Assembly: GCF_000720765.1 (NCBI RefSeq) | Contig: NZ_JODC01000023.1 | Location: 49,399-113,398, forward strand | Direction of reading: 5' to 3' | Origin: Streptomyces sp. NRRL S-646 | GTDB lineage: Bacteria; Actinomycetota; Actinomycetes; Streptomycetales; Streptomycetaceae | Length of the DNA stretch: 64,000 bases | Part shown: positions 22,291-30,630 of the stretch, piece by piece | Numbering within the stretch: position 1 is the stretch's first letter | Layout: each line of letters opens with the position of its first letter | The notes under the pieces: generated by a model | What the model was told of the DNA's origin: nothing | Database searches by the model: none | What the model saw: the letters and a program-made list of their open reading frames with translations, nothing else | Translations under genes and position numbers: made by a program

Positions 22291-23067
22291 ATGGTGGAGC
22301 TGAAGACAGACACATCGATCGACGCCATGTACGAGGCGGGGCAGGTGGTCGGGCGCGCGCTGACGGCCGTACGAAAGGCCGCCGACATGGGTGTTTCCCT
22401 GCTGGAGCTGGACGAGGTGGCCCGCGGGGTGCTGCGCGAGGCGGGAGCGTCCTCCCCGTTCCTCGGCTACCGCCCCTCCTTCGCCCCCGTCCCCTTCCCC
22501 GCCGTCATCTGCGCCTCGGTGAACGACGCGATCGTGCACGGCATCCCGACCGGCTACCGGTTGCGCGACGGCGACCTGGTCTCCATCGACTGCGGCGCCG
22601 AACTGGGCGGCTGGGTCGGCGACTCGGCGACCAGTTTCGTGGTCGGCGAGCCGCGCCCGGCGGACGTACGGCTGATCGAGACGGCGGAACAGGCACTTGC
22701 GGCGGCCATCGAGGCGGCAGTGGTCGGCAACCGCATCGGCGACATCGCGCACGCGATCGGCTCGGTGTGCCGCGCGGCGGGCTACGGCATCCCGGACGGG
22801 TTCGGCGGACACGGCATCGGGCGCCGTATGCACGAGGACCCGGGGGTACCCAACGAGGGCCGCCCCGGCCGCGGTTTCCCGTTGCGCGCGGGCATGGCCC
22901 TCGCCATCGAGCCCATGCTCATCGCGGGCGGCCGGGACGACTACCACGCGGCGGCGGACGGCTGGACCCTGCGCACGAACGACGGCTCACGCGCGGCACA
23001 CGTGGAGCACACGGTGGCGATCACGGAGGACGGCCCCCGGATCCTCACCGCCAGGGAAGCTCTCTGA
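22291..23067 (+). CDS. map: type I methionine aminopeptidase
   Basis: Removes N-terminal Met from new proteins. The 258-residue catalytic domain has all five metal ligands: Asp in SIDCGAE, Asp in GDSATSF, His in FGGHGIG, Glu in AIEPM and Glu in VEHTVAI. Substrate-pocket residues in ICASVNDAIVHGIP also fit. No zinc-finger extension. There is no ribosome-binding site: the start lies 7 nt after a -10, so the message is probably leaderless. Streptomycetes usually encode more than one such enzyme; this one, paired with a dedicated XRE regulator, looks like an accessory copy. Confidence 0.92.
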   Translation: MVELKTDTSIDAMYEAGQVVGRALTAVRKAADMGVSLLELDEVARGVLREAGASSPFLGYRPSFAPVPFPAVICASVNDAIVHGIPTGYRLRDGDLVSIDCGAELGGWVGDSATSFVVGEPRPADVRLIETAEQALAAAIEAAVVGNRIGDIAHAIGSVCRAAGYGIPDGFGGHGIGRRMHEDPGVPNEGRPGRGFPLRAGMALAIEPMLIAGGRDDYHAAADGWTLRTNDGSRAAHVEHTVAITEDGPRILTAREAL

Positions 23068-23401
23068 GCGAGCCACCATGACCCCGCCCACACCGAACAT
23101 GGTGCGTGCCGACCGGGCCGCGCGCTCCGGCGGCTCCCTTCCCGGATTCTGTGCGCGGTGCGCGCCGGTCAGAGCGAGGCACAGATGGGAACGTTTCTTC
23201 ACGCATGCGTACGGCAAATTGCGAACAGTCGTACCCCCCTCACGCCAGGCACGTGCGCCGACGTCAGACCAGAGGCATCTGCTTTTTCATACCGTCATAC
23301 TTTCACGCTGCGTCTTGCCCCTTCTTCACGTTCGGCAGCTAGCTGGTCCTGCGCCCACTCCCCACCCGGGGTCTGGGACACCACCGCAGTGAGGAGTAGT
23401 C
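23068..23401. other. 334-nt leader region upstream of the lasso precursor
   Basis: No credible gene here. GC content falls locally at about 23265-23330 (runs such as CTTTTTCATACC), marking the probable promoter of the lasso operon. GAGGAG at 23391-23396 is the precursor's ribosome-binding site. I see no firm -35/-10 pair or strong terminator for the aminopeptidase gene. Confidence 0.5.
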
Positions 23402-23512
23402 ATGAAGAAGGCATACGAAGCGCCGACACTCGTCCGGCTCGGTACGTTCCGCAAGGAGACGGGGCTCCTGGGAGAGCACGGCAACGACCGGCTGATCCTG
23501 AGCAAGAACTGA
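23402..23512 (+). CDS. lasso peptide precursor, citrulassin-like
   Basis: A 36-residue peptide with GAGGAG upstream. The leader has the YxxP motif recognised by the RRE (YEAPTLVRLGTF) and a Thr two residues before the predicted cleavage site (KETG). The core is then LLGEHGNDRLILSKN. Leu1-to-Asp8 isopeptide bonding gives an eight-residue ring, and GND-RL-(V/I)LSKN matches the citrulassin pattern (citrulassin A is LLGLAGNDRLVLSKN). Positions 4, 5 and 11 (Glu, His, Ile) differ from that peptide. Arg9, deiminated to citrulline in citrulassins, is present. It is followed by cyclase, RRE, protease and exporter genes in order. Confidence 0.93.
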   Translation: MKKAYEAPTLVRLGTFRKETGLLGEHGNDRLILSKN

Positions 23513-23537
23513 CGGGCGACGGCGCAGATCCGACGTC

Positions 23538-25385
23538 ATGACTGAACTGCACGCAAGTGCGGGGACGGGCCCCGGCGACGCGGACTTCGCGGTCTTCACC
23601 GACCACGAGGACGCGGCCGCCGTGGCCCGCTCCTTCGCCCCGCCCGGCAGCCGCACCCTCACCCACTCCTCAGGCCGGCCGTGGCTGGTCGGCCACTGGC
23701 ACGACGACGAGATCGTCACGGCGAGCGCCGGTGACGCCGCCCTCGCGGTCATCGGCTGCTGTCCCGTCGAGGCGGACGAACTGCGCCGCAGGGCCGCACG
23801 GCTGAGGGACCTCGCGGAGCTCGACGCGCTGGCCCGTTCCCTCCCCGGCAGCTTCCACCTCGTCGCCGCCCTCGACGGGCGGATCCGGGTGCAGGGCACC
23901 GCCTCGGGCCTGCGGCTGGTCTTCCACGCGGAGATCGACGGCGTACGGGTGGCGGCAAGCCGCGCCGACACGCTCGCCGCCGCCCTCGACCTCGACCCCG
24001 ATCCCCAGGAGCTCGCCGTCCGGCTGCTGTGGCCGGCCCCGTACCCCCTGTTCGAGACCTCCCTGTGGCGCCCGGTCACCGCCGTGCCCCCGCACGACGC
24101 CGTGATCGTCGCCGCGGACGGGCGCTCCGCACGGCACACCCGCTGGTGGACCCCGCCGGAGCCGGTCCGTTCCCTCGCCGAGTCGGCGCCGCTGATCCGG
24201 ACGGCGCTCCAGGAAGCCGTCGACGCGCGGACCCGGCAGGGCGGCGTGGTCAGCTGCGACCTGTCCGGCGGGCTGGACTCCACCTCCGTCTGCTTCCTCG
24301 CCGACCGCTCCCCAGCCCGCGTGGTGGCCAGCACCTGGCCGGGCCGCGATCCGGCGGACACCGACCTGCACTGGGCCGAGCTGGCCGCGCGGCACCTCCC
24401 GGACGTCGAGCACGTCATCTGGGACGCGGACGCCTCACCCCTGGTCTACGAGGACCTGCTCGGCATCGACGACCTCCTCGACGAGCCCACCATCGGCGTC
24501 ATGGACCGCTCCCGGGCCCTGCACCACCTGCCGGCCCTCGCCGCACGCGGCAGCCGGGTCCACCTGACCGGCATCGGCGGCGACCACGTGGCCTGGTGCT
24601 CCGAGGCCTACTACCACCGGCTGGTGCGCACCCGTCCGCTGTTCGCCCTGCGGCAGCTGCGCGGGTTCCGGGCCCTGTGGCGCTGGCCGCTCGGCGGCAC
24701 CGTCAGCGCCCTGGCGGACTCCCGTCCGTACGGCAGGTGGCTCGCCGACGCGGCGGCCCGGCTGCGCGACCCGTCGCCCTCCTCCTCCGTGGCCACGGGG
24801 CTGGGCTGGGGCATGGCACCGCGGCTGTTCGGCTGGGTGACACAGGACGCCGAGCGGCTGGCACGCCGGGCGCTGCTCGACGCCGCGGCGAAGGTGGCAC
24901 CGCTGCACCCGGACCGGGGGATGCACACGGACCTGGAGCAGATCCGCTCGACCACGCGCGTCATCCGCCAGTGGGACGCGATGGCGGCCCGCGCCGGTCT
25001 GCCGATGGCCTCGCCCTTCCTCGACGACCGTGTCATCGAGGCGTGTCTGGCCGTACGGCCCGGCGAGCGCGTCACCCCGTGGGCGTACAAGCCGGTGCTG
25101 ACCGCCGCGATGAGCGGCCGGGTGCCCGAGGAGTGCCTGCGGCGCACCACCAAGGCCGCGGCCTCGATGGACGCCGCCAACGGCCTGCGCGATCACCGCG
25201 CCGACCTGCTGGCGCTGTGGGAGGACTCCCACCTCGCCCGGCTCGGCCTGGTGGACGGCGCCGAGCTGCGCCGCCTCGCCCGGCGGCCCGCCTCTCCCGG
25301 CCTGTCCGACGCCATCCTCTACTCCACCATCGCCGCCGAGGTGTGGCTGCGGGGACGCTCCCGCAGCCGTGCCCGCACCCCTTGA
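23538..25385 (+). CDS. lasso peptide macrolactam synthetase (asparagine synthetase-like)
   Basis: This enzyme adenylates the ring Asp side chain of the core and forms the isopeptide bond to Leu1. The 615-residue protein has an N-terminal glutaminase-like domain without a catalytic Cys2, and a C-terminal synthetase domain with the ATP-pyrophosphatase loop SGGLDS (residues 243-248). GIGGDHVAW and SPFLDDRVIEACL are typical of lasso C proteins. It begins 25 nt after the precursor stop. Confidence 0.93.
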   Translation: MTELHASAGTGPGDADFAVFTDHEDAAAVARSFAPPGSRTLTHSSGRPWLVGHWHDDEIVTASAGDAALAVIGCCPVEADELRRRAARLRDLAELDALARSLPGSFHLVAALDGRIRVQGTASGLRLVFHAEIDGVRVAASRADTLAAALDLDPDPQELAVRLLWPAPYPLFETSLWRPVTAVPPHDAVIVAADGRSARHTRWWTPPEPVRSLAESAPLIRTALQEAVDARTRQGGVVSCDLSGGLDSTSVCFLADRSPARVVASTWPGRDPADTDLHWAELAARHLPDVEHVIWDADASPLVYEDLLGIDDLLDEPTIGVMDRSRALHHLPALAARGSRVHLTGIGGDHVAWCSEAYYHRLVRTRPLFALRQLRGFRALWRWPLGGTVSALADSRPYGRWLADAAARLRDPSPSSSVATGLGWGMAPRLFGWVTQDAERLARRALLDAAAKVAPLHPDRGMHTDLEQIRSTTRVIRQWDAMAARAGLPMASPFLDDRVIEACLAVRPGERVTPWAYKPVLTAAMSGRVPEECLRRTTKAAASMDAANGLRDHRADLLALWEDSHLARLGLVDGAELRRLARRPASPGLSDAILYSTIAAEVWLRGRSRSRARTP

Positions 25386-25415
25386 GAATCCCCACCGCGT
25401 CAGAAAGGCGAGCAC

Positions 25416-25670
25416 ATGCCCTTGCGGTTCGACGCACACATCTCCACGGCCGAGACCGACTACGGCACCGTTCTGCTGGACGAACGGGCCGGCACCTACT
25501 GGGAGTTGAACCCGACCGCGACCCTGGTGGTCCGCACGCTGCTGGACGGCGGCGAGGAGACGGACGCGGCCGCCGCGCTGGTCCGTGAGTTCGACATCGA
25601 CCGGGCGCAGGCCCAGCAGGACGTCGAGGTGCTGGTCGGTCACCTGCGCGAGGCGGGGCTGGCCTCATGA
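25416..25670 (+). CDS. PqqD-like RiPP recognition element (lasso B1)
   Basis: The 84-residue stand-alone RRE binds the precursor leader and presents it to the protease and cyclase. It has the winged-helix PqqD signature (LLDERAGTYWELNPTATLVV, then helices ending VEVLVGHLREAGL). The stop overlaps the start of the protease gene (ATGA), so the two are co-translated, as expected for the split B1/B2 arrangement of actinobacterial lasso clusters. Confidence 0.93.
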   Translation: MPLRFDAHISTAETDYGTVLLDERAGTYWELNPTATLVVRTLLDGGEETDAAAALVREFDIDRAQAQQDVEVLVGHLREAGLAS

Positions 25671-26092
25671 CGACACCCAGCGCGCTGGAGCGCCCCACCG
25701 GTGTGTCCCTGGGCCTCCGCCTGGCCGCCCGCCTCATGCTGCTCCCCGCCGTCGTGCTCGCTCTGCTGCCGCCCCGGCGCATCCGTGCCGTCCTGGGTGT
25801 CCTGCGCCACGGGGCGACGCCCGCCACCACTGTGCAGGCCCAGGCCGCCCGGGACGCCATGTGCGCCGTCAGCCTGCGCTGCACCGGGCCGAAGGGGTGC
25901 CTGCCGCGTTCACTGGGGGCCGCGCTGCTGTGCCGGCTCCGGGGGACCTGGCCCACATGGTGCGCCGGGGTCCGTGTCGTCCCACCCTTCACCGCGCATG
26001 CCTGGATCGAGACGGAGGGCCGCCCCGTCGGCGAGGGCGTACCGGACGGCTACTTCGCCCGGCTGCTGGCCGTCGAGCCGACGCACCGGTGA
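25667..26092 (+). CDS. lasso peptide leader peptidase (transglutaminase-like, B2)
   Basis: Cysteine protease of 141 residues that removes the leader after the Thr-Gly pair. Cys78 in GPKGCLPRS and His111 in TAHAWIE are the catalytic pair. The usual third residue, Asp 12 positions after the His, is Glu123 here (GRPVGEG), a conservative change. A short hydrophobic N-terminal segment precedes the domain. Both flanking genes overlap by 4 nt, giving tight coupling with the RRE and exporter. Confidence 0.93.
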   Translation: MTTPSALERPTGVSLGLRLAARLMLLPAVVLALLPPRRIRAVLGVLRHGATPATTVQAQAARDAMCAVSLRCTGPKGCLPRSLGAALLCRLRGTWPTWCAGVRVVPPFTAHAWIETEGRPVGEGVPDGYFARLLAVEPTHR

Positions 26093-27924
26093 GCAGCGGT
26101 ACGGCGCCGGACGAGCCCCCTGGCGAGGACCGGTCGACCCGCGCGGCCGTGGCCACGCTGTTCCGGCTCACCGGCGGGCACCGGGCCGCGGTGGCCGCGG
26201 CCACCGCTCTGACACTGGCCGGCTCCGCCCTGGGGCTGGCCCAGCCGCTCGTGGCCCGGCACGCTGTGGACGCGGGTGGCCGCGGACAGGTCCTCTGGCC
26301 ACTGCTGGCACTCCTCGGTGCGCTGTTCCTCGTCGAGGCGGCCATCGGGTCGGTGGGGCGCTTCCTGCTGGAGCGGATGGGCGAGGGTGTCGTACGGCAG
26401 CTCCGCATGGGTTTGGTCGGACGTCTGCTCCGGCTGGAGATGCGGGAGTACGACCGGCACCGCAGCGGCGACCTCGTCTCCCGGGTCACCGCGGACACGA
26501 CCCTGTTGCGCGAGGTCGTGTCACAGGCGCTCGTCGACCTGGTGACCGGAAGCCTCGTCGCTGCCGGGGCGCTGGTCCTGATGGCGTGGCTCGACCCGCT
26601 GCTGCTGCTTCTGGTCGCCCTCACCGTGGCCGTGGCGGCAGCCGTGGTCACCTCGCTGCTCCAGGGCATCCGGCGCGCCTCCGAGCGTATGCAGGACTCG
26701 GTCGGCGCGGTCGCCGCGGACCTGGAACGGGCGCTGGGCGCCCTGCCGATGGTCCGGGTGCACCGCGCCGAGGATCGCGAGGCGGCCCGCATCGGGGCCA
26801 GGGTCGAGGAGGCGTACGAGGCGGGGGTGAGCACAGCGCGGCTCGCGTCCGTCATGAGTCCCGCCGTCGAACTCGCCGTCCAGGGCTCCTTCCTCGTCGT
26901 CCTCGTCGTCGGGGGCCTGCGCGTCGGCGGTCACGCCGGCTCCCTCGGAGATCTCGTCGCGTTCCTGCTGTACGCCTCGTACCTGGTCATGCCGCTCTCC
27001 TCCGTCTTCCACGCGGTGGGACTGATCCAGCGCGGCATGGGCGCCTACCGGCGCGTCGACCAGGCGCTGCGCCTCCCCACCGAACAAACGGACCCGCTGG
27101 TCGCGCAGGACCGCCCCCTCCCCCGGCCCGTCTCACCCGCGGCACCCGGCTCGCCCGCGCTCGCGCTGGACGACGTCCGGTTCGGCTACGCTCCGGGCCG
27201 TCGGGTGCTCTCCGGTGTGTCCTTCACCGTGCCCCACCACCGGCAGGTGGCCCTCGTGGGCCCCTCGGGCGCGGGCAAGAGCACCGTCTTCGCGCTCGTC
27301 GCGCGGTTCTACGAACCCGACTCGGGGGCCGTGCTGTTCGACGGGCGGCCCGCCACCGAGCTCGGCCGCGACGCCTGCCGCCGGCGCATCGCCGTGGTCG
27401 ACCAGAACACCCATGTCGTCCACGGCACCCTGCGGGAGAACATCACCTACGCCGTCCCCGACGCCCCGGAGGCCGAGGTACGGCGGGTCCTCGCGCTGGC
27501 CCGGCTGGAGGAACTCGTCGACCGGCTGCCCGGCGGCCTGGACGCCGTCATCGGTGAACGCGGGAGCACCCTCTCGGGCGGCGAACGCCAACGCGTCGCC
27601 CTGGCCCGCGCCCTGCTCGCCCGCCCCGCGCTGCTCCTGCTGGACGAGCCCACCTCGCATCTCGACGCGATCAACGAAGCCGCGCTGACCACCGTGATGA
27701 AGGAGATCGCCCAGGAATGCGCCCTGCTGGTCATCGCCCACCGACTCTCGACCGTGCAGCACGCCGACCGCATCGTCGTACTCCATGAGGGCCGCAGCGT
27801 CGCAGCCGGCGACCACGAGGAACTGCTCGCCCACAACCCCCTCTACCGCGACCTGGCCACAAGCCAGATGCTGCGCCCCGGCGCACCGTCCGCCGACCGT
27901 GGGGGCCGTCGGACGAACGGCTGA
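26089..27924 (+). CDS. lasso peptide ABC exporter (fused membrane and ATPase domains)
   Basis: The 611-residue half-transporter exports the mature lasso peptide and probably gives self-immunity. Six membrane helices span about residues 30-300. The ATPase domain has Walker A GPSGAGKST, signature LSGGERQ, Walker B LLLLDEPTSHLD and a switch His in VIAHRLST. The GTG start at 26089 overlaps the protease stop (GTGA). It is the last gene of the lasso operon. Confidence 0.92.
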   Translation: MSSGTAPDEPPGEDRSTRAAVATLFRLTGGHRAAVAAATALTLAGSALGLAQPLVARHAVDAGGRGQVLWPLLALLGALFLVEAAIGSVGRFLLERMGEGVVRQLRMGLVGRLLRLEMREYDRHRSGDLVSRVTADTTLLREVVSQALVDLVTGSLVAAGALVLMAWLDPLLLLLVALTVAVAAAVVTSLLQGIRRASERMQDSVGAVAADLERALGALPMVRVHRAEDREAARIGARVEEAYEAGVSTARLASVMSPAVELAVQGSFLVVLVVGGLRVGGHAGSLGDLVAFLLYASYLVMPLSSVFHAVGLIQRGMGAYRRVDQALRLPTEQTDPLVAQDRPLPRPVSPAAPGSPALALDDVRFGYAPGRRVLSGVSFTVPHHRQVALVGPSGAGKSTVFALVARFYEPDSGAVLFDGRPATELGRDACRRRIAVVDQNTHVVHGTLRENITYAVPDAPEAEVRRVLALARLEELVDRLPGGLDAVIGERGSTLSGGERQRVALARALLARPALLLLDEPTSHLDAINEAALTTVMKEIAQECALLVIAHRLSTVQHADRIVVLHEGRSVAAGDHEELLAHNPLYRDLATSQMLRPGAPSADRGGRRTNG

Positions 27925-27965
27925 GGAAGACGTGCCGGGCAGGCGCTGGAGGTGCCCCGGGCCAC

Positions 27966-28027
27966 CCTTCGTGCGAAGGTGTTCTATGGGCGTGCGCCAA
28001 GGTGTAACCGGCTCTCACCCGGGTTAC
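27966..28027 (+). promoter_or_regulatory. two inverted repeats upstream of the ClpC-like gene
   Basis: The segment carries CCTTCG-TG-CGAAGG (27966-27979) and GTAACC (28004-28009) facing GGTTAC (28022-28027). They lie in the 168-nt gap between the lasso exporter and the ClpC-like gene. Either could be a terminator for the lasso operon or an operator for the stress gene. The sequence does not clearly match the known HspR or ClgR boxes. Confidence 0.4.
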
Positions 28028-28092
28028 CCGACTGCGGCACGTCGATCAGCGAGGGCGTCCCGGGCCCCGCAGGGACGCCGGATGGGAAGGCC

Positions 28093-30630
<2,538 letters not shown>

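Follow-up and report, generated by a model that had tools for sequence, protein, structure and literature searches.

A citrulassin-type lasso peptide gene cluster of Streptomyces sp. NRRL S-646 with a predicted arginine-bearing product

Which peptide is encoded at positions 23402-27924 of the analysed DNA of Streptomyces sp. NRRL S-646 (the window, 64,000 nucleotides), and are all genes for its formation present? Very probably, the locus is a complete and probably working class II lasso peptide cluster of the citrulassin type, and its predicted product most likely keeps arginine at core position 9. The genes, the core and its variation, and the fate of Arg9 were examined by comparison with related genomes.

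Genes, surroundings and conservation of the cluster

Five genes with intact frames were found on the plus strand in the order precursor, cyclase, RRE, B2 protease and ABC exporter (23402-27924). The lasso precursor (23402-23512, 36 aa) was matched by PF19397 with 49.9 bits (cut-off 22.6) and by NF033521 with 25.9 bits (cut-off 19). Its translation is MKKAYEAPTLVRLGTFRKETG followed by LLGEHGNDRLILSKN. The leader (23402-23464, 21 aa) carries YEAP, a YxxP motif, at leader positions 5-8 and threonine at position -2; the core (23465-23509) is followed by the stop codon (23510-23512). Length, leader motif and Thr at -2 agree with the original prediction for this DNA. The asparagine-synthetase-like lasso cyclase (23538-25385, 615 aa) was recognized by PF00733 (Asn_synthase, 169.6 bits, E 2e-49), and its best NCBIfam model, NF033561, scored 250.2 bits, under the cut-off of 300. 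The RRE, a PqqD-like leader-binding protein of 84 aa (25416-25670), matched NF033530 with 112.9 bits (cut-off 70). In a sequence search of the PDB it matched the TfuB1 structure 6jx3_B (E 1.4e-20); no match was obtained in this way for cyclase and protease. For the transglutaminase-like B2 leader peptidase (25667-26092, 141 aa), PF13471 and NF033537 (111.7 bits, cut-off 33) were found, and no second NF033537 match at E <= 0.001 was detected in the genome, so this protease is the sole one found. The ABC exporter (26089-27924, 611 aa) starts with GTG and comprises permease and ATPase (PF00664 ABC_membrane, PF00005 ABC_tran). No Rfam match for structured RNA reached the gathering score anywhere in the window. 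Thus, a YxxP/Thr-2 precursor is combined with cyclase, RRE and B2 protease, as expected of a lasso cluster, and the predicted completeness and gene order are borne out by family-model matches to all five genes. The 4-nt overlaps, predicted for all junctions, exist between RRE and protease (25667-25670) and between protease and exporter (26089-26092), but precursor and cyclase are separated by 25 nt and cyclase and RRE by 30 nt.

According to general knowledge of lasso pathways, the RRE would bind the YxxP leader, the B2 protease would cleave after Gly-1 and the ABC protein would export the product. The cyclase is predicted to form a lariat by linking the Leu1 amine with the Asp8 side chain, so that the ring encloses the threaded tail. 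Known lasso rings consist of 7-9 residues, the acceptor being an Asp or Glu at one of core positions 7-9. Asp8, invariant in all 46 cores compared below, is the predicted acceptor because it is the sole carboxylate giving a ring of 7-9 residues. Ring closure via Glu4 was rejected; it would make a ring of four residues, outside this range.

For the distribution of the precursor, 392 genomes of the same genus, the source genome included, were searched at E <= 0.001. Besides the source genome, 46 of the 391 others gave a match (47 genomes). G219, with Glu at position 9, and G383, with one weak match, were dropped, as were the additional weak hits, with other cores, in G381 and G388; citrulassin-type precursors remained in 45 of 392 genomes, with 47 cores. 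Two such precursors with different cores were found in G006 (L022, L043) and likewise in G251 (L023, L044). The related precursor of G219 (L060, G219:C2:118176-118280) has the core LLGLRGNDELVLDKHV; with Glu in place of Arg at position 9, no Arg9 is available for deimination.

Stretches of 20 kb were taken from 12 relatives, a non-random choice among the best-scoring carriers. All four enzymes were matched beside the precursor in each of them. The exporter showed 77.5-83.4% identity, and the cyclase 83.6-86.5% (in L070 the cyclase match spans residues 129-615 only). The cyclase values refer to relatives with citrulassin-type cores, and not to CitC, to which more than 45% identity is taken as a citrulassin criterion in PMC12971885. 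Since 46 of 391 other genomes match the precursor and all 12 stretches keep the enzymes adjacent, the cluster is not a chance pattern.

A promoter-like element, TTGCC-N18-GCTAGCT (23315-23344, plus strand), starts 87 nt before the precursor start and has no mismatch here. With at most one mismatch it was present in 20 of 44 upstream regions, in 18 of these 20 with a spacer of exactly 18, while 50 Markov resamplings gave a mean of 0.36 and a maximum of 3 regions; the motif was derived from the regions in which it was counted, and kinship was ignored. The set covers 44 of 47 regions (those of G082, G198 and G213 were left out, and that of L058 is one codon off). Another 18 of the 44 have the element with two or three mismatches only, a level at which resampled sequences average 18.3 of 44 matches, and from six it is wholly absent. 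It also precedes clusters at different chromosomal places. A sigma-70 scan found no site at the element, and it is regarded as a promoter candidate only.

Outside the cluster, a methionine aminopeptidase-like gene (22291-23067, plus strand; PF00557 Peptidase_M24, 149.8 bits) lies to the left and a Clp ATPase gene, a ClpC-like paralogue (28093-30630, plus strand; AAA_2, AAA_lid_9, ClpB_D2-small, Clp_N), to the right. The open reading frame listed for the latter (27952-30630) probably starts too early, 28093 being the probable start: in three relatives with Clp beside the cluster the alignment begins at codon 48 (28093), and among further relatives several align from about this codon and others from earlier ones. 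The two flanking genes are neighbours in relatives, too. In G334 and G306 the cluster lies between the same two genes, and in G211 it has the same Clp side, the aminopeptidase gene not being found within the stretch taken. The remaining nine of the 12 relatives have it at other chromosomal places. The Clp site was viewed in 29 relatives, top-scoring and thus non-random picks. In 24 of them the aminopeptidase gene lies within about 1 kb and no cluster gene was matched; in four the aminopeptidase gene was not clearly matched within the stretch. The last one, G104 (L084 4184-4362), has scraps between the aminopeptidase and Clp genes that match 25798-25888 of the protease, in opposite direction, and 26726-26759 and 27836-27883 of the exporter. 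Judged by these matches, they are what is left of a similar cluster after scrambling.

Lassomycin acts on ClpC1. By this analogy a functional link between the Clp gene and the cluster was considered and rejected: among 121 genomes searched, 34 besides the source have a Clp match of at least 80% identity, and only three of these (G049, G016, G026) possess a citrulassin-type precursor. In G049 both genes are about 240 kb apart, and Clp stands beside the cluster in just three of the 12 relatives taken.

The remnant of G104, with nothing but protease and exporter scraps at the same chromosomal site, and the 24 of 29 relatives viewed without any cluster gene there would fit a cluster that is silent or decaying and yields no product. 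This is very unlikely for the present locus, whose five frames are intact, whose upstream element has zero mismatches and whose core has the commonest residues everywhere outside residues 3-5.

Core peptide and residue 4

The core fits LLxxxGNDRLxLSKN with Arg9 and is of the citrulassin type. The prediction of a citrulassin-like core and cluster is therefore supported, the type belonging to a family known since 2017 (PMC12971885). For the linear peptide a mass of 1677.916 was computed, for the neutral lasso 1659.906 and for the deiminated lasso 1660.890; the Arg9-bearing lasso would give [M+2H]2+ at 830.960. Recomputation thus confirmed the earlier values (1677.9 linear, 1659.9 lasso, about 1660.9 deiminated).

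Position counts were made with 46 of the 47 cores, that of G082 (LLGRSGNDRLLLSKN) being left out. Eight positions are invariant (2, 6, 8, 9, 10, 13, 14 and 15). The entropy amounts to 1.90-2.27 bits at residues 3, 4 and 5 and to at most 0.64 bits elsewhere, which suggests that residues 3-5 form a variable face of the ring. At all other positions the present core carries the residue found most often in the sample. Residue 4 is Arg in 22 cores, Ser in 11, Lys and Phe in three each, Glu and Asn in two each, and Asp, His and Thr in one each. Glu4, His5 and Ile11 had been named as differences from citrulassin A. These differences are real, yet Glu4 alone is rare (2/46, present core counted); His5 (12/46) and Ile11 (41/46) are common. 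A charge in the ring is also common in the family, as by Arg4 in 22 of 46 cores; the oddity of the present core is the sign of the charge.

The exact 15-mer LLGEHGNDRLILSKN is absent among the 34 predicted citrulassin cores of Table 1 in PMC12971885, found using the citrulassin A cyclase. It was not found in the main texts of the papers searched either; supplementary precursor lists could contain it. Among the genomes, the exact core of 15 residues ending in Asn was seen in the source only. However, Streptomyces sp. IMTB 2501 encodes it with an additional Ser, and published cores one residue away exist (PMC12971885, Table 1). The original observation is sound and its family assignment correct, but novelty of the core was overstated.

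A pattern scan for an acidic residue 4 in the GTDB 220 species genomes, from which the records of the source genome itself were possibly excluded, hit three stretches, namely Streptomyces sp. NRRL S-455 (LLGDAGNDRLILSKN), Streptomyces sp. IMTB 2501 (LLGEHGNDRLILSKNS) and L042. No citrulassin-like frame was found in L042 (Erysipelotrichaceae), and this hit was taken as chance. Residue 4 is Asp in NRRL S-455 and Glu in IMTB 2501 and the present core. In a tree built with the four enzymes of 13 clusters, the cluster of NRRL S-646 groups with those of G334, G306 and G211 (support 100/100), whose residues 3-5 are GRS, GRA and GRA, all three with Arg4. The IMTB 2501 cluster (G146) sits among QRH and GDA cores in a fork of five rows (99/98), nearest to a cluster with a QRH core (84/93). 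Glu4 seems to have replaced another residue, probably Arg, in the source lineage. It probably arose twice, because both clusters are found on separate branches of the enzyme tree, unless precursor genes were swapped between clusters. A far-reaching interpretation would regard residues 3-5 as a surface that diversifies for recognition; the recurrence of an acidic residue at position 4 would then mark a change of target or partner, possibly in those lineages that keep a charged Arg9. We consider this improbable. A link between acidic residue 4 and the absence of a peptidylarginine deiminase (PAD) was considered and dropped: two of the three cases are without PAD match, numbers too small for any statement.

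Arginine 9 and peptidylarginine deiminase

In known cases the PAD gene is located outside the cluster (PMC12971885, PMC9266682, PMC8498205), and actinobacterial PADs are included under the PAD_C model (PMC8826395). A PAD elsewhere in the genome, as expected for a citrulassin proper, was not found in the draft genome of the source: a profile search with PF03068 gave no match at E <= 1. The PAD of a relative (737-aa frame) produced only one partial hit of 17.9 bits there, covering residues 34-119 outside the PF03068 part. Lack of pad is tied to an Arg-bearing product in reviews (PMC9266682, PMC8498205). Since no PAD was found, Arg9, whose deimination the original prediction had left undecided, is expected to stay unmodified; the product most likely keeps it and would be a peptide of the des-citrulassin type. 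For the same reason the locus is filed as citrulassin-type with an expected Arg9 product, and not as source of a citrulline peptide.

Among the 392 sampled genomes, 65 have a PF03068 match at E <= 0.001, short or interrupted matches (G104, G128, G290, G319) included; a weak control hit in Synechococcus elongatus, seen at E <= 1 and under the cut-off, was not counted. The match in G104, the genome with the cluster scraps, is short, and no other was found there. In the citrulassin carrier G329, the PAD frame (L036 1489-3702, minus strand) shows by eye, close to the probable start, an apparent signal peptide. Deimination could happen extracellularly if this PAD is exported.

Deimination of the product at Arg9 as in citrulassin A would need a PAD missed in the draft or an unrelated deiminase. 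The source assembly consists of 163 contigs, its completeness being given as 100, so a gap could hide such a gene. Citrulassin producers carry pad with one exception (PMC9266682), and this producer suggests that another enzyme may exist. Arg9 itself is invariant (46/46 cores), and genomes with a citrulassin-type precursor have a PAD match more often (16/45) than those without (49/347; Fisher p 0.0009, kinship ignored). Nevertheless, 29 of the 45 carriers are without PAD match, therefore absence is the commoner state among them. Together with the missing PF03068 match and the missing long PAD match in the source genome, and with G334, G306 and G211, the genomes whose clusters are nearest in the tree and which all lack a PF03068 match, this makes a deiminated product improbable, and the Arg9-bearing peptide is preferred.

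Comparison with known citrulassins

In general, the present core adds one citrulassin-type member in which the charge of ring residue 4 is reversed and underlines that nearly all citrulassin variation falls in residues 3-5. Its main use is that of a test case probably bearing Arg9 naturally. In the literature passages searched, no account of the natural role of citrulassins was found. For citrulassin N only weak activity was described, with a MIC of 40 ug/ml towards S. aureus and >50 for three other strains (PMC12971885).

Citrulassin A (LLGLAGNDRLVLSKN, quoted in PMC6856326) has the same core type, Arg9 and tail pattern. The present core differs by Glu4, His5 and Ile11, and the product of citrulassin A contains citrulline at position 9. 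Citrulassin N (LLQSSGNDRLILSKN) of Streptomyces sp. NAX00255, for which the ring Leu1-Asp8 and Cit9 were reported, resembles the present peptide in the predicted 8-residue ring closed at Asp8, in Arg9 and in the tail RLILSKN; residues 3-5 are QSS instead of GEH, and its strain possesses a PAD homologue, whereas none was found in the source genome (PMC12971885). Closer in sequence are the predicted citrulassins LLGRHGNDRLILSKN, LLGKHGNDRLILSKN and LLGHHGNDRLILSKN, which share 14 of 15 residues with the present core and have Arg, Lys or His in place of Glu at residue 4 (PMC12971885, Table 1). In the core of the IMTB 2501 cluster (L041, G146), residues 1-15 are identical, including Glu4-His5, and G146 is also without PF03068 match. 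This cluster differs in the extra C-terminal Ser, in the end of the leader (FRNQTG instead of FRKETG), in its flanking genes and in its separate branch of the tree.
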